Positions 10,594 to 54,947 of a stretch of DNA of 64,000 nt are shown in pieces. This DNA comes from Methylocystis parvus OBBP (GTDB lineage Bacteria > Pseudomonadota > Alphaproteobacteria > Rhizobiales > Beijerinckiaceae). The stretch is taken from assembly GCF_027571405.1 (NCBI RefSeq), contig NZ_CP092968.1, forward strand, positions 2,936,001-3,000,000, read 5' to 3'. How positions within the stretch are numbered: the first letter of the stretch is position 1; each line of letters opens with the position of its first letter. The translations under genes were made by a program, and so were the position numbers. The notes beneath the pieces are model-generated. The model saw nothing but the letters and a program-made list of their open reading frames with translations. It did not search any database and was not told the DNA's origin.

Positions 10594-12096
10594 ATGTCCA
10601 AACAAGATTCCACACTTAAGGTTGAAGCCCGCAGCCCGCGCGGTTTCGCGGATCGCGAGGCGGGCGAGATCGCGGCGACGAACCGCATGCTCGACGTCAT
10701 CCGCTCGGTCTATGAGCTTTACGGCTTCGAGGCGCTCGAAACCCCCGCCTTCGAATATACCGACGCGCTCGGCAAGTTCCTGCCCGATCAGGACCGGCCG
10801 AACGAGGGCGTCTTCTCCCTTCAGGACGATGACGAGCAGTGGCTGTCGCTGCGTTACGACCTCACCGCGCCGCTCGCGCGCTATGTGGCGCAGAATTTCG
10901 ACCGCATCCCGAAGCCCTACCGCTCCTATCGCTGCGGCCCGGTGTTCCGCAACGAGAAACCGGGGCCGGGGCGCTTCCGCCAGTTCATGCAGTTCGACGC
11001 CGATACGGTGGGCTCCGCTTCGCCCGCCGCCGACGCCGAGATCTGCATGATGGCCGCCGACGCGCTCGAGAAGCTCGGCGTGGCGCGCGGCGATTACGTC
11101 ATCAAGATCAACAGCCGCAAGGTTCTGGACGGCGTGATGGAGGCGATCGGCGTCGGCGGCGAGGAGAACGCCGGGCGCCGCCTCGTCGTTCTGCGGGCCA
11201 TCGACAAGCTCGACCGGCTCGGGCCGGACGGCGTGCGCCAGCTCCTGGGCGAGGGCCGCAAGGATGAGAGCGGCGACTTCACGAAAGGCGCGGGCCTGCC
11301 CTTGCCGGCGATCGACACCATTCTCTCCTTCAGCCTTGGCGGGCAGTATAAAGACGGCAAGCCGCAATTCGATCTGTTCGGCCTGCTGGGTAAGAGCGAC
11401 GTCGGCGCGCAGGGCGCGGAGGAGCTTCTCGAAATCGAGGATCTCGCGCGCGACGCCGGCTATGGGCCGGACCGCATCCGCATCGACCCTTCGGTCGTGC
11501 GCGGGCTCGAATATTATACAGGCCCCGTCTTCGAGGCCGATCTGACCTTCGAGACGCGTGACGAGAAGGGCCATCCGGTGCGCTTCGGTTCGGTCGGCGG
11601 CGGCGGCCGTTATGACGGACTCGTCGGACGTTTCCGGCCGGAGAATACGCCCGCGACCGGCTTCTCCATCGGCGTGTCGCGACTCTTCGCGGCGCTAAAG
11701 CTCGTCGGCAGCCCCATCGTCACGGCGCAGCCGCATGTCGGACCAGTCGTCGTGCTGGCGCTCGATAAGGACCGGCTCGCCGATTATCAGCGCATGGTCG
11801 GGCAGCTTCGCGTCGCCGGCGTCGCCGCCGAACTTTATCTCGGCGCGGCGGGCATGAAGGCGCAGATGAAATATGCCGACCGGCGCCGCGCGCCGCTCGC
11901 GATCATTCAGGGCTCGGACGAAAAGGCGAAAGGCGAAGTTCAGATCAAGGACCTCGTCGCCGGCGCAAAGGCGGCCGCCGGCATCGCGACCAATGAGGAA
12001 TGGAAGGCCGCGCGCCCCGCGCAATTTTCCGCGCCGGAGAGCGAGCTGGTCGAAGAGGTGAGAAAGGCGCTGGCGGCGCAGCGCGAGCAGGGCTGA
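10594..12096 (+). CDS. hisS: Histidyl-tRNA synthetase
   Basis: HisS charges tRNA-His with histidine. The 500-residue class II synthetase shows motif 2 ([14 protein letters not shown]), the histidine-specific [14 protein letters not shown] and a C-terminal anticodon-binding domain. It is longer than E. coli HisS and carries the alphaproteobacterial form of motif 2; in this lineage the enzyme is known to pair with tRNA-His that can lack the usual G-1. The ATG at 10594 (MSKQDS) is chosen over an upstream in-frame ATG at 10564, which falls at the edge of the repeat. Confidence 0.95.
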
Positions 12097-12141
12097 CGAA
12101 TCTGCGACACTGGGGATCGGGTGAAGGTCTCCTCATCCTGA

Positions 12142-13037
12142 GAGTCCGTTTGAGAATGGTTGAAGGCTTGTCGCTGGCGTGATTCAAGCACGGGATGTGG
12201 ACCCGAGCGAATCGCGCCAAGATGGCCGCCATTGAAAAGCAAACCAAGCGGTATCCGACAGATTTGACCGACGAGGAGTGGACGCGCGTCGAGGCGTTTC
12301 TTCCGTCGCCAGCGCGGCGAGGACGAAAGCCCTCTGTGGAGTTGCGCGAGGTTTTGAACGCCATCCGCTACATCGCTCGCGCCGGCTGCGGCTGGCGCAT
12401 GCTGCCGAAGGACTTTCCGCCTTGGCAGACCGTTTACTGGTGGTTTCGTCGCTTCATGCGCCGCTTTCTTTTCGAGACGATCCATGACGTGGCTCTGATG
12501 ATCGACCGCGAGCGCGCGGGCCGCGAGGCGAGCCCTTCGGCAGGCGTCATCGATAGTCAGTCGGTGAAAGCGCCCGCCGCGAAAACCCGAGGCTACGACG
12601 CCGGCAAGAAGATCAACGGGCGCAAACGCCACATCGCCGTGGACACGGACGGACGGCTGCTCATGGTCAATCTGACGACGGCGGATATTTCCGACTCCGC
12701 GGGCGCGCAGCAGGTTCTCGACGCCATTCGTAAGCGCTGGCCGTGGATCAAACATCTATTCGCCGACGGCGCCTATGATCGAAGGAAACTCATGGATAAG
12801 GCGGCGTTCAAGGACTTCGTCGTCGAGATCGTGAAGCGCATCGACGCCGATCCAGGCTTCAAAGTCCTGCCGCGACGCTGGGTGGTTGAGCGAACCTTTG
12901 GCTGGATGACCCGCTGGCGACGCCTCGTGCGCGATTACGAAAAGCGCATCGACGTCTCCAAGGCCATGATCCACGTCGCTCTCGGTGGACTCCTCTTGCG
13001 CAGGATCGCGCACTGAAATCAATTCTCAAACGGACTC
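12142..13037 (+). mobile_element. IS5-family insertion sequence, IS1031-like, complete (896 bp)
   Basis: The terminal inverted repeats are GAGTCCGTTTGAGAAT at the left and its perfect complement at the right, 16 bases each. A three-base direct repeat TGA flanks the element (12139-12141 and 13038-13040), matching the TNA target duplications known for the IS1031 group of IS5. One uninterrupted transposase gene fills the interior. Intact ends, target duplication and ORF suggest a fairly recent, possibly active copy. Confidence 0.9.
12195..13016 (+). CDS. IS5-family transposase
   Basis: This is a DDE transposase of 273 residues encoded in a single frame. It starts with the DUF4096-type N-terminal domain (DLTDEEWTRVEAFLP, RRGRKP, NAIRYIARAGCGWRMLP). 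The catalytic residues are the first Asp in GVIDSQSVK, the second in LFADGAYDRRK and the Glu in VVERTFGWMTRWRRL. All motifs are intact and no frameshift is present. An internal ATG at 12222 (MAAIEKQ) could be the true start. It lies wholly within the inverted repeats at 12142 and 13037. Confidence 0.93.
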   Translation: MWTRANRAKMAAIEKQTKRYPTDLTDEEWTRVEAFLPSPARRGRKPSVELREVLNAIRYIARAGCGWRMLPKDFPPWQTVYWWFRRFMRRFLFETIHDVALMIDRERAGREASPSAGVIDSQSVKAPAAKTRGYDAGKKINGRKRHIAVDTDGRLLMVNLTTADISDSAGAQQVLDAIRKRWPWIKHLFADGAYDRRKLMDKAAFKDFVVEIVKRIDADPGFKVLPRRWVVERTFGWMTRWRRLVRDYEKRIDVSKAMIHVALGGLLLRRIAH

Positions 13038-13100
13038 TGAGGAGCGAGCGAAGCTCGCGTCTCGAAGGAGAGGAGACCTTCATTTCCCGAACTTTGGAAC

Positions 13101-13150
13101 TCGCCTTCGTGCTTCGAGACACCGCCTTCGGCGGTTCCTCAGCATGAGGG
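13101..13150. repeat. Dispersed palindromic repeat, second member
   Basis: In the reverse direction this carries the same cores as the IS-split element (CATGCTGAGGA and GTCTCGAAG), but with an inner stem ACCGCC-TTC-GGCGGT. It fills the spacer before the universal stress gene. Confidence 0.6.
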
Positions 13151-13257
13151 CGAGGATTGTCGTCCTTCGCCCGATCGCCCTGCCTGCGACAACGCCGGTC
13201 TAGGCGCGCTCCCCTCGCCGATATAGGTTTAGCCCGAAGAACAAAGGGAGATGCGCA

Positions 13258-14079
13258 ATGATCGGCGAGCCGCCCAAATCCATCGTTCATCCGACGGACC
13301 TCTCCTTCGCCAGCCAGGAGGCCTTCGCCCATGCGCTGCGCATCGCCGTCGCGACGCAGGGCGTGCTGCATCTCTTGCACATAGAGGCGGCCGAGCAGCA
13401 GGAGACGGACGACTGGGACCGCTTTCCGCATGTGCGGGAGATGCTGGCGCGCTGGCGCATGATCGAACCGGCCGCCTCGCGCGCCGAGGTCGCGGAAAAG
13501 CTCGGCGTCCAATTCGTGAAGGCCACGGTGGAGTCGGCCTCGCCCGTGCAGGGCGTCGCGGCCTATGTCACGAAGCATCTCGGCGACCTGATGGTGCTGA
13601 TGACGCATAACCGTTCTGGGCTCGAGCGCTGGCTCGAGGAGTCGGTCGCCGAGGAAGCGGTGCGCGAGACGCGCGCGCCGGCGCTTTTTCTGCGCGAGGA
13701 TCAGACCGGCTTCATCGATCGCGAGACGGGCAAGGTGAAGCTCGACACGGTGCTGATGCCGGTCGAGGCGAGCGTGCCGCCGCTCGACGCCTTCCGGCAC
13801 ATCGCCGATTTCGCCCATGCGCTCAACCCGGCCGCCGATATCATGCTGCTGCATGTCGGGGACGATCTGCCGATCTTCGACGGCCTCCTGCCGCATATCG
13901 AATTGCGCAAAGGGGCGCCGGTCGAGACGATCCTATCTTATGCGACGGAAATCGGCGCCGATCTCATCGCCATGCCGACGCAAGGGCGCCGCGGCCTGCT
14001 CGACGCGCTGCGAGGCTCGACGACCGAGCGCGTGCTCCGGGGCGCGCCCTGCCCGGTTTACGCCGTGCCGGCGAAGTAA
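13258..14079 (+). CDS. Universal stress protein, tandem UspA domains
   Basis: The 273-residue cytoplasmic protein has two Usp folds, roughly residues 5-150 and 160-273. The second ends with the ATP-binding signature MPTQGRRGLLDALRGSTTERVL (G-x2-G-x9-G-S/T), so nucleotide binding is likely there. The first has a degenerate version, MTHNRSGLERWLEES. Tandem Usp proteins support survival under stress; no specific signal can be deduced. The start ATG follows GGGAGATGCGCA. Confidence 0.88.
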   Translation: MIGEPPKSIVHPTDLSFASQEAFAHALRIAVATQGVLHLLHIEAAEQQETDDWDRFPHVREMLARWRMIEPAASRAEVAEKLGVQFVKATVESASPVQGVAAYVTKHLGDLMVLMTHNRSGLERWLEESVAEEAVRETRAPALFLREDQTGFIDRETGKVKLDTVLMPVEASVPPLDAFRHIADFAHALNPAADIMLLHVGDDLPIFDGLLPHIELRKGAPVETILSYATEIGADLIAMPTQGRRGLLDALRGSTTERVLRGAPCPVYAVPAK

Positions 14080-14087
14080 GGACGGCC

Positions 14088-14166
14088 GTCATTGCGAGCG
14101 TAGCGAAGCAATCCAAGGCTGCGATGTGGCTCTGGATTGCTTCGTCGTTTCACTCCTCGTAATGAC
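14088..14166. repeat. Dispersed inverted repeat (GTCATTGCGAGCG type)
   Basis: This is a long imperfect hairpin. The left part GTCATTGCGAGCGTAGCGAA pairs with the right part ending CGTAATGAC, and an inner pair CAATCCA/TGGATTG closes around a short loop. Similar elements are known as dispersed repeats in several Hyphomicrobiales. It sits between the universal stress gene and the convergent META-domain gene. Confidence 0.55.
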
Positions 14167-14177
14167 GGGGTTGGGCG

Positions 14178-14681
14178 TTACAACGCCCGCTGGAACTTCA
14201 GAACGCCGCCCTTGAAGCCCTTGAGGGTCAACTCGTCGCCTTTCACGTCCCAATAGGGGCCGGAGAGCAGCACGTTCCAGTAGTCGCGCTCCATGCCCGC
14301 CAGGGCGCCGTCGCAGCCGCGCTCATTGACCGCCGGCATGGCGCGGGGGCCGAGGCGGTCCGGGCCGATGATGAAGACGCCCGACCAGTTCTTGCAGCCG
14401 GAAAAGCCGTTGGCGCGTCCCGTCGAATCGATATTGATCCACATCTCGACCGGCGGCGCCTTGCCGTTGATCTCGACGAGATTGAAATTGCGGTTGTGCG
14501 GGAAAGGCACGTAGCGCGGAATGCCGCCCGTATCCTTGTTGCCGGCGGCCTCGCCGCCTTGCTGCTGTTCCTGACCCTGCTGGCCTTCCTCGGCGGGCTT
14601 GGCGCGCTTCTTGGCGTCGGCCGGGCCGGCGATCATCGCCGCGCAAAGGGCGCAAGCGAGGATCGAAAAGAATTTGTTCAT
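14178..14681 (-). CDS. Secreted META-domain (HslJ-like) protein
   Basis: The protein has 167 residues with a signal peptide ending PADA, a charged Gln/Glu-rich linker (residues about 25-50) and a domain resembling META/HslJ. The pattern STGRANGFSGCKNWSG corresponds to the family's G-F-x-G-C-N signature, and the C-terminus has LTLKGFKGGVLKF. META domains are found in heat-shock and envelope proteins of unknown biochemistry. The start is well supported by GGGAGG upstream. It appears to be monocistronic. Confidence 0.6.
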   Translation of the reverse strand: MNKFFSILACALCAAMIAGPADAKKRAKPAEEGQQGQEQQQGGEAAGNKDTGGIPRYVPFPHNRNFNLVEINGKAPPVEMWINIDSTGRANGFSGCKNWSGVFIIGPDRLGPRAMPAVNERGCDGALAGMERDYWNVLLSGPYWDVKGDELTLKGFKGGVLKFQRAL

Positions 14682-50471: not shown

Positions 50472-50490
50472 AATTGTCGCGGCGACAATT
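50472..50490. promoter_or_regulatory. Perfect palindrome downstream of cobT
   Basis: AATTGTCGC, one central G and GCGACAATT form a 19-base perfect palindrome. It lies 43 bases after the cobT stop and about 98 before the small membrane gene. No T-run follows, so an operator is as likely as a terminator. Confidence 0.4.
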
Positions 50491-50587: not shown

Positions 50588-50713
50588 ATGGCGTTGATGA
50601 GAAAGGTGCGCCGGGAGGCGCCTGAATTCGAGAAAGTAGCGTGCGTGACGGCGATTTGCGCGCTGGCGACCCTGCCGTTGGCCTTCTGCGCGGCGATCAC
50701 GATTTTCGCCTGA
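50588..50713 (+). CDS. 41-residue possible membrane peptide
   Basis: An ATG at 50588, nine bases after GGGAG, opens a frame of 41 codons ending TGA at 50711-50713. The first 17 residues are charged (MALMRKVRREAPEFEKV). The remainder is one hydrophobic segment with three cysteines (ACVTAICALATLPLAFCAA). A hairpin with arms AAGGGGCGCC/GGCGCCCTT follows at 50726-50751. It is 210 bases upstream of the protease-nuclease gene. The family is unknown. Confidence 0.45.
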   Translation: MALMRKVRREAPEFEKVACVTAICALATLPLAFCAAITIFA

Positions 50714-50922
50714 GTCGAGAGAGAGAAGGGGCGCCATGCGGCGGCGCCCTTCAGACGCGCGCCGTCATCATTCTGTCTGGCGCGGCGTGTATTTCCGTTC
50801 AAGTTCGTTGCGTTTGCATCGGGGCGTTTCGAAAAATTCGTTTCTGGCGGCCAGCCTGTCGCATTTTGTTCGGCCAATGCCGGCGACCCTTTCGATGAGC
50901 CCTCATTTTCGGGGAGGGCCGC

Positions 50923-53067
50923 GTGGACCGCGACAAAATCGATCAGGGGGCGCTCGACGCCTTTCACAACCTTGTCGAGAGCACCAGGGAGAAACGCCGC
51001 GAGGCGCGCCGTCTCGTCGCGACCGGCCGCTGGCGCGAGATCGAGGACGACGTCTCGCGGGCCGTCGCCTATTTCTCGAAACGCGCGCCGCGCGCTGCGG
51101 GGGCGGAGGCCGCGAGAGGGTCGCTCGACTTCCAGCCGGTTTCTTTCCTGACGACCGGCGCGCTTGCGCGGAACGCCGTCGCCTATGTCGAGTCGCCGCT
51201 GAACGGCGCGACGGCGACCGGATTTCTCATCAGCCCGCGCCTTTTCCTCACCAATCATCATGTGCTCGAGAGCGACGCCCATGCGCGCGGCGCGCTGATC
51301 ACCTTCCGGCGGGAATTCGAGAACGGCCATTTCGTCGCGACGACGGTCTTCAAGCTCGATCCAGACCGCTTTTTCATTTCGTCGCCGGACAATGATCTCG
51401 ATTTCGCGCTGGTCGCGGTCGGAGAGCGGACGGCTGGCGCCGAGACGCTCGACGCCTTTTCCTATTGCGTCCTGTCGAACAAGCCGGACAAGCATGTCAA
51501 AGGGATGAGCGTCAACATCATCCAGCATCCGCTCGGCATGCATAAGATGGTGACGGTGCGTAACAACATCCTGCAGGAGCGCACGGCGCGCAGCCTGCTT
51601 TACGAGACCGATACGGAACATGGCTCGTCCGGCGCGCCGGTTTTCAACGACGAGTGGGAGCTGATCGCGCTTCATCATTGGGGCGAGCCCGCGCTTGCGC
51701 TCGGCGACAGCGATCTCATCAACCGCAATCTGCAGGTGAATGAGGGCGTGCGCATCAGCGCGCTCTATGAACGTTTCGACCAGATTCTGCCGACCCTGGA
51801 AGGCGAGAAGCGCACGCTCCTCGCCGAGGCGCTCGATTTCGCCAAAAACGCGCCCGCCGCGCCGACGGAAAAGAAGCTCGGCGGCCCGGCGCCCGCCCCC
51901 GCCGCCGAATCCCTCTCATCTTCAGGAGCCGTCATGCCCGCCGCCAATCCGCAACCCGCCGCCGTCGAAGCCGTTCGAGCCGCGGCCGGCGAACTGAAGA
52001 TCGTTGTGCCGATCGAAATTTCGGTGCGCATCGGCGGCGCGGGCGTGGCCGGGCTTGCGGCGGGCGGCCTCGCGCCCGCGCCTCTGGCGCCTGCGGAGCA
52101 GAAACAATTGCTGCGCGCGGCGGAGGCCTTGCGCATCGATCCCGACTACGCCTCGCGAAGCGGCTACCGGGAAGATTTCATCCCGGGCCATACCGTGCCG
52201 CTGCCGAGCCTCTCGGCGAAGCTCCTCAAGCAGATCGCGCCTCTGCGCGCCGGCGAAGCCGATGCGGAGAGCGGCCTGCTGAAATATGAGCATTTCAGCG
52301 TCGTCATCAACAAGACGAAACGCATCGCGATCTATACCGCGACCAATATAGACGGCGCGACCTATCTCGACGTCAATCGCAGCACCGGTCAGGTCGCCGC
52401 CGCCGAAGCCGACCAGTGGTTCAAGGATCCGCGCGTGAGCGCGGGCTTCGTGCTCGACCAGACCTTCTATTCGGACTGGTCGCATATTTTCGATCGCGGC
52501 CATCTCACCCGGCGCAGCGATCCGACCTGGGGCGACGCGGACACGGCCGAGCGCGCCAATGCCGACACTTTTCATTTCACCAATTGCTCGCCCCAGCATT
52601 TCCGCTTCAACCAATCGGCCAAATTCTGGCAGGGCGTGGAGCGCTTTGTTCTGGAGAACGGCGTGCTGGCCGACGATGCGCGCAAGCCGCTCTGCGTCAT
52701 TCAGGGCCCGATCTATGACGAAAAAATCGATCGGACGGCCGACGACGTGCAAATACCGTCCTCTTTCTTCAAGATCGTCGTCTGGAAAGGCAAATCGGGC
52801 CTGAAGTCGGTCGGGCTCGTGGTCGATCAGTTCAACCTGCTCGACGAAACGCGCAAGAATCTCGGCGGCCCGAAAGATCTCGCCAGCGTCGACGTCCAGC
52901 ATTGGCGCGTCTCGGTTCAGTCGATCGAGAAGCGGACCGGCCTGAATTTCGGCGACGCGATGCGCGCCGCGGACACGATCAACCTCGCCGGTCAGCCGCA
53001 GGTCGGCGCCGAGGCGCTGATCCGCGTGACGAAATTCTCGGATTTGCTGCCGCCGGTCTTGGAATAG
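50923..53067 (+). CDS. Trypsin-like serine protease fused to DNA/RNA non-specific endonuclease
   Basis: The protein has 714 residues and no signal peptide. The N-terminal 50 residues are helical and charged. Residues about 75-285 are a trypsin-like domain with the triad His113 (LTNHHVL), Asp160 (DNDLDFALV) and Ser236 (HGSSGAPVF). A Pro/Ala linker (310-350) leads to a NUC1-type ββα-metal nuclease (about 400-710) with the catalytic DRGHL at 524-528 and NCSPQHFRFNQ downstream. The start is GTG at 50923 behind GGGGAGGG. Fusions of this kind are suspected intracellular conflict effectors; the trigger and target are unknown. Confidence 0.85.
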   Translation: MDRDKIDQGALDAFHNLVESTREKRREARRLVATGRWREIEDDVSRAVAYFSKRAPRAAGAEAARGSLDFQPVSFLTTGALARNAVAYVESPLNGATATGFLISPRLFLTNHHVLESDAHARGALITFRREFENGHFVATTVFKLDPDRFFISSPDNDLDFALVAVGERTAGAETLDAFSYCVLSNKPDKHVKGMSVNIIQHPLGMHKMVTVRNNILQERTARSLLYETDTEHGSSGAPVFNDEWELIALHHWGEPALALGDSDLINRNLQVNEGVRISALYERFDQILPTLEGEKRTLLAEALDFAKNAPAAPTEKKLGGPAPAPAAESLSSSGAVMPAANPQPAAVEAVRAAAGELKIVVPIEISVRIGGAGVAGLAAGGLAPAPLAPAEQKQLLRAAEALRIDPDYASRSGYREDFIPGHTVPLPSLSAKLLKQIAPLRAGEADAESGLLKYEHFSVVINKTKRIAIYTATNIDGATYLDVNRSTGQVAAAEADQWFKDPRVSAGFVLDQTFYSDWSHIFDRGHLTRRSDPTWGDADTAERANADTFHFTNCSPQHFRFNQSAKFWQGVERFVLENGVLADDARKPLCVIQGPIYDEKIDRTADDVQIPSSFFKIVVWKGKSGLKSVGLVVDQFNLLDETRKNLGGPKDLASVDVQHWRVSVQSIEKRTGLNFGDAMRAADTINLAGQPQVGAEALIRVTKFSDLLPPVLE

Positions 53068-53154
53068 CGCGAGAGGGCGGCGCGGCGCGCGGTCGATCGT
53101 CCATCGCGAACGTTAAGAGAGGGCCGTGCGAAAACCGCGCTCCCTCTTACGCGC

Positions 53155-53949
53155 TCAGGACGGCTCGGCGATGGGCCATTCGCCCTTATAGACGCCGCCC
53201 TGATTGTCATGCGCGACGACGCGCATCGTCTTCGCGCCGTTCGGCGCATAGCTGAAACGGAAATTCGGGTCTTCCGACAGGGAGATTCCGCCCTCCATCT
53301 TGAAAATCAGCTCGTCCCCCTGCCAGACCTCGACGGCGTCGACATAATGCGCGGGCGTGTAGGCGCGGGTGATCTGATCCATCTGCATGCCGGAATTATT
53401 CGGGTGGCGGATCATGATCTGCGCCTCGCGCCTGCCGGCGGCGGCGCTCCTGAATTCGCGGTATTTCATCTTGCCCATATTGGCGAGCGCCTCGTCCGGG
53501 TCCTTGCCGGCGGGAGCCGAGCAGCCGCCCGAAGCCTTCACGAATTCCGCCTCCGAATGCAGCTTGCCGTCGCGCGTCTCCGCCACGGCGTGGACATTGG
53601 TGTAGCTGTTCACGCGCACGCGCGTTTCGATGAAGTCGACGCCCGCCTTCTCGCCCAGCGTGAAGCTCGCGGCCATGGGCATCGGATTCTGGTCGATGAC
53701 GAGCGTCGCGGCTTTCACCTTTGCGGGGTCCGCGAAGCGCATGGTCATCGGCACGATGGCCGCGTCCTCCGCGCGCTTGGGCGCGTCGAGCGAGATCGTC
53801 CCGTCGGCCGGCGCGATCTCGCGGCCGTGGAAAATATCCGTAACGAGACTCGGCCAGGGATCGGGGGCGTTGGATTCGGCCAGCGCCGCCGACGAGGCGA
53901 AGGCGGCGACGATGAGAGCGGCGGCGCGCGCGGCGCGAGCGAGGGACAT
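53155..53949 (-). CDS. Quinoprotein dehydrogenase-associated SoxYZ-like carrier
   Basis: The periplasmic protein has 264 residues with a signal peptide ending ALAE. It resembles SoxY fused to SoxZ: the SoxY-like part covers about 30-150 and contains SGGCSAP, with a possible carrier cysteine, and the SoxZ-like part is IMIRHPNNSGMQMDQ onward. This family is known from loci of PQQ-dependent alcohol dehydrogenases, where it is thought to carry an intermediate. The metallohydrolase gene lies 62 bases upstream on the same strand; xoxF is divergent. Confidence 0.85.
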   Translation of the reverse strand: MSLARAARAAALIVAAFASSAALAESNAPDPWPSLVTDIFHGREIAPADGTISLDAPKRAEDAAIVPMTMRFADPAKVKAATLVIDQNPMPMAASFTLGEKAGVDFIETRVRVNSYTNVHAVAETRDGKLHSEAEFVKASGGCSAPAGKDPDEALANMGKMKYREFRSAAAGRREAQIMIRHPNNSGMQMDQITRAYTPAHYVDAVEVWQGDELIFKMEGGISLSEDPNFRFSYAPNGAKTMRVVAHDNQGGVYKGEWPIAEPS

Positions 53950-54011: not shown

Positions 54012-54947
54012 TCACGGCTCCTCCCATTCCAGCTCCGCAAAGCCCGCCGTCGCATTTCGAATGTTGTAATCCTCGAAAAGCGCCCACTTCCCGCGCTCGT
54101 CGCTCCCCGCCGCGGCGGCGGCCTCCTTCACGCTCTCGCCCTTTTTGATCGCGGCGCGCAGATCGGCGGTGAGCCGCGTGAGATAAGCCCGCTCGTCGTC
54201 GAGCGCCTTCGGCCAGGGGGCGACGAGCGGCCCGTGTCCCGGCACGACGCGCTCGGCCTTGACGCTGGCGAGCTTCTCGGCGACGTCGAGGAAGCCGAGC
54301 AGACTGCCGTCCACCACCGGCACATGCCGCAGGAACAGAAGATCGCCGGCGAAGAGCGTGCCGGTCTTTTTGTCGAGCGCGGTGAGGTCGGCCTCGCTAT
54401 GCGCCGTCTTCCAGGCTTGAAGGACGATTTCCCGCCCGCCGAGATCGAGCGTCGCCGAATCGCTTACGGTCAGCGTCGGCGCGACGATGGTCACGCCGTC
54501 GAGCGCGTCGCCCATCGTCTGGCGGAAGGCGGCGAGATAATGCTCGCCCCGGAGACTGAGGGCGCGCGGCAGATTTTTATGCCCGACAAAGGTGACGCCG
54601 TCCCCGGCGAAAGCGCCGTCGCCGAAGACATGGTCCGGATGGGCGTGGGTGTTTATGACATAGCGGATGGGCTTTTGCGTTTTCTCGCGCAGCGCTGCGA
54701 GGAAGGCGCGGCCCTCCAAAAGACTGCCGCCCGTATCAATCACCGCGACCGCGTCGTCGCCGACGATCGCGCCGAGATTGGCGATGCCGCCCAGATTTTC
54801 CCGATTCATCGGGGACGTTTCTCCCTGATGCGCATAGACGCCGGGCGCGATCTCCTCGAGGCCGAAATACGGGGCGGCGGCGCCGGGCGCGGGAAAGAAG
54901 GGCAGCGCGGCGAGGGCGGCGGCGAGCGTGAGAAAACGGCACAACAT
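54012..54947 (-). CDS. Quinoprotein relay system zinc metallohydrolase
   Basis: This is a secreted metallo-beta-lactamase-fold hydrolase of 311 residues. It has a signal peptide and the zinc motif THAHPDH (His101, His103, Asp105, His106), then the metal-ligand His in KTAHSEADLT and in VPGHGPL. It matches the metallohydrolase type found beside SoxYZ-like carriers in PQQ dehydrogenase loci. A role in repair or processing of a dehydrogenase-linked intermediate is only an inference. It is co-directional with the SoxYZ-like gene. Confidence 0.85.
   Translation of the reverse strand: MLCRFLTLAAALAALPFFPAPGAAAPYFGLEEIAPGVYAHQGETSPMNRENLGGIANLGAIVGDDAVAVIDTGGSLLEGRAFLAALREKTQKPIRYVINTHAHPDHVFGDGAFAGDGVTFVGHKNLPRALSLRGEHYLAAFRQTMGDALDGVTIVAPTLTVSDSATLDLGGREIVLQAWKTAHSEADLTALDKKTGTLFAGDLLFLRHVPVVDGSLLGFLDVAEKLASVKAERVVPGHGPLVAPWPKALDDERAYLTRLTADLRAAIKKGESVKEAAAAAGSDERGKWALFEDYNIRNATAGFAELEWEEP

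Follow-up and report, generated by a model that had tools for sequence, protein, structure and literature searches.

Kaur 2020 (PMC7159879) described, as System 3, a "NucA-trypsin" system in which a nuclease and a trypsin-like peptidase are fused or encoded in one operon, found it mostly in alphaproteobacteria, and predicted that the protease releases the effector. EAD1, STAND/Death-like and further peptidase partners accompany just a subset of these systems (PMC7159879). In the Caulobacter LypABC CARD-NLR-like system, LypC works with LypA and LypB and carries a trypsin-like protease followed by an EndA/NucA-like nuclease; its protease serine is essential for lysis, its nuclease mutants H471A and N505A still lyse, and the LypC of C. 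endophyticus has no nuclease (PMC13236601). Tuck 2025 (PMC12799240) described MBL pro-nuclease and trypsin pairs in Hachiman, AVAST, Lamassu and DRT, with proteolytic activation of the pro-nuclease shown in trans, and a caspase-nuclease, canu, that likewise follows a protease-activated nuclease logic. That a trypsin-NucA fusion releases its nuclease is an idea already in print (PMC7159879). Here we describe a fusion of this type from Methylocystis parvus OBBP and a protease cassette that it shares with proteins carrying other effectors.

Architecture and conservation of the fusion protein

The window, the whole 64,000-nucleotide stretch of DNA analysed, carries on its plus strand a protease-nuclease fusion gene (50923..53067; 714 aa) with a GTG start and, immediately 5' of it, a purine-rich stretch, GGGGAGGG. 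Pfam places Trypsin_2 at residues 98-250 (E 5.6e-21) and Endonuclease_NS at residues 452-680 (E 3.4e-39), so that, as in NucA-trypsin systems, a trypsin-like peptidase is fused to an Endonuclease_NS nuclease; NCBIfam gave no match for the protein. An N-terminal conserved region (residues 1-82, 50923..51168, plus strand), in which R25, R29, E41, R46 and E62 are kept, is a possible sensing or assembly part, and a profile search of solved structures returned no usable match to its fold. It is followed on the same strand by a V8/S1B-like serine protease (residues ~83-285, 51169..51777) with the triad H113 (51259-51261), D160 and S236, then by a Pro/Ala-rich linker (residues 286-359, 51778..51999) that holds a conserved island at ~319-329 in close homologues, a conserved strand motif, IVVPIEISVRIG (residues 360-371, 52000..52035), a second, variable linker (residues 372-395, 52036..52107) and an Endonuclease_NS (NucA/EndoG) nuclease (residues ~396-690, 52108..52992) with DRGH at 524-527 and N554. 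The gene has a GC content of 0.64 and a GC3 of 0.81, near the values of its neighbours. A promoter scan found no sigma-70-like site, and terminator-like sites numbered 6, versus 3.4 in shuffles.

The closest solved structure to the protease is glutamyl endopeptidase V8 (profile E 1.1e-8), followed by the Spl and exfoliative proteases, while the nuclease is closest to mitochondrial EndoG, a weak match (E 0.0008). Both the His-Asp-Ser triad and the V8-like profile are thus present and, as in V8, the alignment places Thr at Ser-5 and His at Ser+15. Unlike V8-like (S1B) proteases, the fusion is multi-domain, has no signal and carries Asp at Ser-6, which we take to be the trypsin-like residue for that position. 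Each of these three residues is found in all 120 listed homologues; because V8-like (Ser-5, Ser+15) and trypsin-like (Ser-6) residues are mixed, the cleavage preference is not readable from the sequence. The PADLOC profile RT-Protease_XI, a reverse transcriptase fused to a protease, was rejected, as just its protease end matches.

Our first homologue search scored 8000 candidates and found 571 homologues. The 120 listed are 51-66% identical to the fusion, itself excepted, and 71 of them make up alignment A1. Both Pfam domains occur in every one of the 120 listed (of 571), as do H113, D160 and S236 in the alignment and D524, G526 and H527 of the nuclease motif; R525 is kept in 116. The preliminary description of this DNA, drawn from its letters, had proposed an intact trypsin triad and a DRGH nuclease in one 714-residue chain, and had named poor conservation of the catalytic residues as grounds against its reading; the chain is as it described, and the residues are anything but poorly conserved. 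Its further claim that the protein has no signal peptide agrees with hydropathy: within the first 60 residues of the fusion the 12-residue Kyte-Doolittle mean never exceeds 0.27, so no hydrophobic stretch is seen at its N-terminus, and by the same measure the 120 listed homologues have a median of 0.30 and a maximum of 1.9, reached by one outlier.

Among 35 wider relatives that we fetched, a set that includes L053 and L069, with another or no recognised C-terminal domain, the triad is complete in 35, H527 is kept in 34 and D524 in 28, the nuclease motif being more variable than the protease triad. Between the two Methylocystis copies, from OBBP and from Methylocystis sp. SC2, the protease is 69% identical, the nuclease 78% and the first linker 38%, with NG86 dN/dS values of ~0.12 for the protease and 0.10 for the nuclease that are rough because dS exceeds 1.5. 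Purifying constraint thus acts on a single chain that has an intact V8-like protease, a variable linker with one conserved strand-like motif, and the intact motif of a non-specific nuclease.

A sporadic accessory gene and its neighbourhoods

Pfam identifies the gene upstream of the fusion as CobT. On the 3' side lie a SoxYZ-type gene and then a metallo-beta-lactamase-fold gene, both on the minus strand, and further downstream a PQQ-dehydrogenase, a weakly matching cytochrome c and a solute-binding-type gene. The MBL-fold gene (54012-54947), two genes 3' of the fusion and on the opposite strand, has a signal-like start; in other systems, MBL nucleases are the partners of proteases. The preliminary description had placed the fusion as an island between cobT and xox genes; the cobT side and the lone accessory gene stand, and "xox" was that description's own label.

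We compared the locus by blastn with 15 loci fetched from relatives. Ten match the window without a break up to 50703-50717 and resume at 53137-53195; the other five match piecewise up to 50703-50705 and resume at 53150-53153. At the SC2 locus the match also spans the fusion gene. Together with the junction sequences, these comparisons set the stretch missing from gene-less relatives at approximately 50714..53151, so the fusion gene stands alone in an insertion or deletion of ~2.4 kb. The closest relative of the fusion, 67% identical, is that of SC2, which sits in the same place beside the SoxYZ-type gene, with a gene bearing molybdopterin oxidoreductase domains between it and cobT. We then searched 39 genomes of the genus for cobT and the SoxYZ-type gene, taking the gap as the bases between the matched parts. 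The gap is 308-789 bases in 19 genomes, 1836-1982 in 8, 4205 in SC2 and 2731 in M. parvus OBBP; in the remaining 10 the two genes are on different contigs or distant from each other, or one of the two is incomplete or absent. Hence 27 of the 39 have the pair with a gap too small for the fusion gene, and the ~1.9-kb gaps are presumed to hold a relative of the molybdopterin oxidoreductase gene of SC2.

The OBBP and SC2 fusions are sisters in the tree with full SH-aLRT support, and such same-place sister copies fit either one old gain followed by many losses or transfer within the genus. A close form of the fusion occurs in 2 of 37 genus members; the family as a whole reached E 0.001 in 13 of 61 relatives, close and full-length solely in OBBP and SC2. 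Counting its own genome, it was found in 3 of 385 genomes of a class sample at E 1e-60 and in 16 of 397 of an order sample at E 1e-40. A Herbaspirillum family sample gave 7 of 392 at E 1e-60, one distant and six at 52-56% identity, these six including the centre genome, which was chosen for having the gene. Among plasmids, 116 records matched, and in 13 of them the match took in 80% or more of the query. No relative turned up in one scan of viral contigs, and the three annotated phage records that matched did so over the nuclease part, so a phage origin was rejected. The fusion is therefore a sporadic accessory gene, gained or lost as a unit.

Two upstream elements that the preliminary description had linked to the gene turned out to lie outside the fusion system. 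The 41-aa hydrophobic peptide ORF (50588..50713, plus strand), beside cobT and without a Pfam match, is encoded in recognisable form in all 15 sampled Methylocystis loci, 14 of which have no fusion there, and in SC2 another gene separates it from the fusion. The palindrome AATTGTCGC-G-GCGACAATT (50472..50490), 42 nt past the end of the cobT ORF, occurs just once in the genome, and its exact arms stand side by side in none of the 15 relatives' loci on either strand. Pfam, applied to nine neighbouring genes and the 41-aa ORF with no EAD1 model among those used, gave no STAND/Death-like or further peptidase partner. Neighbouring CARD/NLR genes or a second protease were likewise rejected, being absent from the window neighbours put to Pfam: the adjacent CARD-protease and NLR-like genes of LypABC/CARD-NLR systems were not found beside the fusion, nor was any LypA- or LypB-like gene among the nine annotated neighbours either side. 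The genome as a whole has one Endonuclease_NS match and ten Trypsin_2 matches, fusion included; five of the nine other Trypsin_2 proteins, viewed in context, are unlike the fusion beyond a 24-residue match (E 0.009).

We also looked at the genes around the relatives, compiling 80 neighbour proteins and putting 40 to Pfam; L054, where no gene was called, was excluded from the context table. No match was returned for 10 of these 40, and 23 are ordinary genes of metabolism, transport, regulation, repair or translation; the other 7, two of them weak matches, may have a conflict flavour. The conflict-flavoured matches are an S1/P1 nuclease and a SLOG match (L042), an REase-ARP (L076), a subtilase-trypsin protein (L067), a protease (L068) and, below cut-off, a patatin (L063) and an endonuclease/phosphatase (L060). 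PADLOC on 20 neighbours gave strong matches solely to SIR2 and HerA, both near L046, a Rhizobium plasmid on which these genes (11349-14344) lie ~1.3 kb downstream of the fusion relative. On Bradyrhizobium conjugative plasmids (L042 and L043) the relative is followed by the S1/P1 nuclease gene, whose product has a signal-like start as judged by eye, and a SLOG/LOG-like gene. On two Cupriavidus plasmids (L044 and L045) the relative is found inside a type II secretion cluster, with gspF on one side and gspG on the other. Across 37 loci in which the family gene was called, a few of them duplicated, 15 surrounding proteins contain a Walker A motif, one of these also being trypsin-like (L067). The preliminary description had asked whether homologues occur in defence islands. 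Most neighbours put to Pfam are ordinary and there is no consistent defence neighbourhood; the neighbourhoods neither prove nor exclude a defence role, and a role against phage is unproven.

The linker strand and the shared protease cassette

The Pro/Ala linker is 94-139 residues long in the 120 listed homologues, and P363 within it is invariant in all of them, flanked by beta-type residues. The consensus around it, [IV]P[LI]x[IV][ST]V, is common to relatives with other effectors, and we predict from its composition in these sequences that it forms a beta strand. One such relative (L053, from the same genus, genome G023) has the protease and the strand, but Endonuclease I at its C-terminus. 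Trypsin_2 is joined to Endonuclease I also in proteins from Planctomycetaceae (L007), Acidimicrobiia (L008) and Olivibacter (L009), none of which matched our first, strict expression for the strand.

A search with the protease-linker part of L053 found 4467 proteins. Sorted by reading their Pfam domains, the 120 listed comprise 59 with Endonuclease I, 51 with a class-3 lipase and 10 others, including one calcineurin-like. The motif lies 80-180 residues past the catalytic Ser in 117 of the 120 Endonuclease_NS proteins, 56 of the 59 with Endonuclease I, all 51 lipases and 7 of the 10 others, versus shuffle expectations of 5.2, 2.0, 2.8 and 0.4, respectively; these counts give its prevalence and are not a blind test, because the expression was written after the Endonuclease_NS motif and some relatives had been viewed. 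Its median distance from the catalytic serine is 120-128 residues. With at most 45 proteins per class, hhalign matched the linker-strand parts at 96.0% (Endonuclease_NS with Endonuclease I), 84.2% (Endonuclease_NS with lipase) and 99.9% (Endonuclease I with lipase), and the C-terminal parts at 0.2-0.3%, which is no match between effector classes. With a looser expression, all 6 calcineurin-type and both PLD-type proteins that have Trypsin_2 show the strand, and in the four calcineurin/PLD-type proteins and one lipase protein that were scanned, Pfam places the effector C-terminal to the protease. We conclude that one protease-strand cassette precedes five effector domains: Endonuclease_NS, Endonuclease I, class-3 lipase, calcineurin-like and PLD.

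One protein (P0127, 412 aa) stops seven residues past the motif, which suggests where the protease module ends; another short protein (P0132) has no strand motif. The fifth position of the motif is mostly E in the Endonuclease_NS clade, Q in the lipases and mixed in the Endonuclease I fusions, and we saw in the motif no obvious scissile residue common to the effector classes. On a protease-only tree built from 66 chosen proteins, accounting for the five effector labels takes 9 changes against a minimum of 4, so a single origin of each effector class was set aside; as well-supported branches force few of these changes, repeated swapping of effectors is suggested, not shown. The proteases of L067 and L068 are very different from those of the other proteins in the tree. 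These two are Endonuclease_NS fusions with a different trypsin type and a similar strand motif; Pfam finds protease domains beside both, and the subtilase-trypsin protein that L067 adjoins recalls Kaur's description. Some proteins, P0277 among them, have a calcineurin-like domain fused to a caspase domain; that of P0277 is 35% identical to the corresponding domain of P0201, a protein with the protease cassette.

The main text of PMC7159879 contains no word beginning "lipase" and no "endonuclease I", and its account of the NucA-trypsin system makes no mention of the strand motif or of the cassette on other effectors. Our searches of the open-licence literature returned no account of this cassette joined to Endonuclease I, lipase, calcineurin-like or PLD domains. 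Wein et al. are said to have described, in 2025, phospholipase and endonuclease variants of CARD-NLR systems, so some of the effector exchange may have been reported there. What is new here is the linker strand motif and the protease-strand cassette before other effectors.

Proposed mode of action and relation to known systems

Taking these observations together, we judge the case evenly balanced that the gene would encode a NucA-trypsin protein acting by itself in the cytosol as a suicide or conflict enzyme, with a protease-gated nuclease. In the course of events that we infer, the fusion would be kept inactive at rest, its strand serving the protease module as a latch or docking element, until some trigger switches on the protease, perhaps through the N-terminal 80 residues or by oligomerisation. 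The active protease would then cut the linker in cis or in trans, freeing or unmasking the nuclease, which would degrade DNA or RNA and kill or arrest the cell; phage or other invading DNA would be the most plausible occasion. Protease gating of the nuclease, also put forward in the preliminary description, fares well in some respects: both domains are present, no export signal is seen, the 2020 prediction is in print, and the same protease-linker cassette stands ahead of five exchangeable effectors, which favours and strengthens a proteolytic gate. Against it, mutation of the nuclease in LypC left lysis unaffected, the neighbourhoods show no consistent defence setting, the effector classes have no obvious scissile residue in common, and in wider relatives the nuclease motif varies more than the triad.

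That dispensability (PMC13236601) is the starting point of a LypC-like alternative, in which the protease is the working part, cutting another host protein and so triggering lysis, with the nuclease secondary or structural. We regard this as unlikely, though not far-fetched. It is in keeping with the essential serine of LypC, with lysis by H471A/N505A and with the nuclease-free C. endophyticus protein (PMC13236601), and also with the invariant triad and varying nuclease motif of the 35 fetched relatives; yet both active sites are invariant in the 120 listed homologues, the nuclease is better conserved than the protease between the two Methylocystis copies, the spacing between the active sites is different (175 residues in LypC, 291 here), and LypC needs LypA and LypB, which have no likeness among the nine annotated neighbours either side. 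The two Cupriavidus plasmids with a relative between gspF and gspG, and the Bradyrhizobium relatives that precede an S1/P1 nuclease with a signal-like start, would suit a degradative enzyme whose export needs no classical signal and which breaks down protein and nucleic acid outside the cell. Such export seems improbable, given that the family, one outlier apart, has no N-terminal hydrophobic segment, that a protein must carry a Sec or Tat signal to take the type II route, and that no secretion-system gene is found among the 40 neighbours put to Pfam. A housekeeping enzyme of cytosolic turnover is more improbable still: the 23 ordinary neighbours of the 40 and the equally ordinary annotated neighbours in the window would agree with it, but the gene turns up rarely and unevenly, in 7 of 392 genomes of the Herbaspirillum family sample and 3 of 385 of the class sample, and is cleanly absent from 14 of the 15 relatives' loci.

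Returning to the gated suicide enzyme, we tentatively propose, as something that could well prove wrong, that one-gene suicide devices form a large, unrecognised class in which a fixed V8-like protease and latch-strand linker serve as a universal release switch and unrelated effectors are exchanged. The calcineurin-like domain of the same kind on a caspase elsewhere hints that switch and effector may both be swapped. If the proposal is right, bacteria keep, in one protein, a counterpart of the killer enzymes that proteases release in animal cell death, its effector being an exchangeable module, and the conserved strand offers a way to recognise such devices by sequence even where the effector is not a known one. 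The shared cassette with its exchangeable effectors deserves to be followed.

Set beside the systems described, the fusion resembles the MBL pro-nuclease pairs in the protease-activated nuclease logic proposed for it, but those pairs have an MBL nuclease in a separate gene and a sensor-fused protease (PMC12799240), whereas the fusion carries a nuclease of a different fold on the protease chain itself. Like LypC, it has protease then nuclease in one chain; unlike LypC, in which Ser296 and His471 by the published numbers are 175 residues apart, it has 291 residues from Ser to His (PMC13236601). It is closest to the NucA-trypsin systems, as it joins an Endonuclease_NS-type nuclease to a trypsin-like peptidase, and differs from some of them in being a lone gene without STAND or subtilisin partners; since partners are optional in that group, their absence is compatible with membership (PMC7159879). 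For the window, the upshot is a solitary gene assigned to a predicted class and stripped of its two supposed partners.
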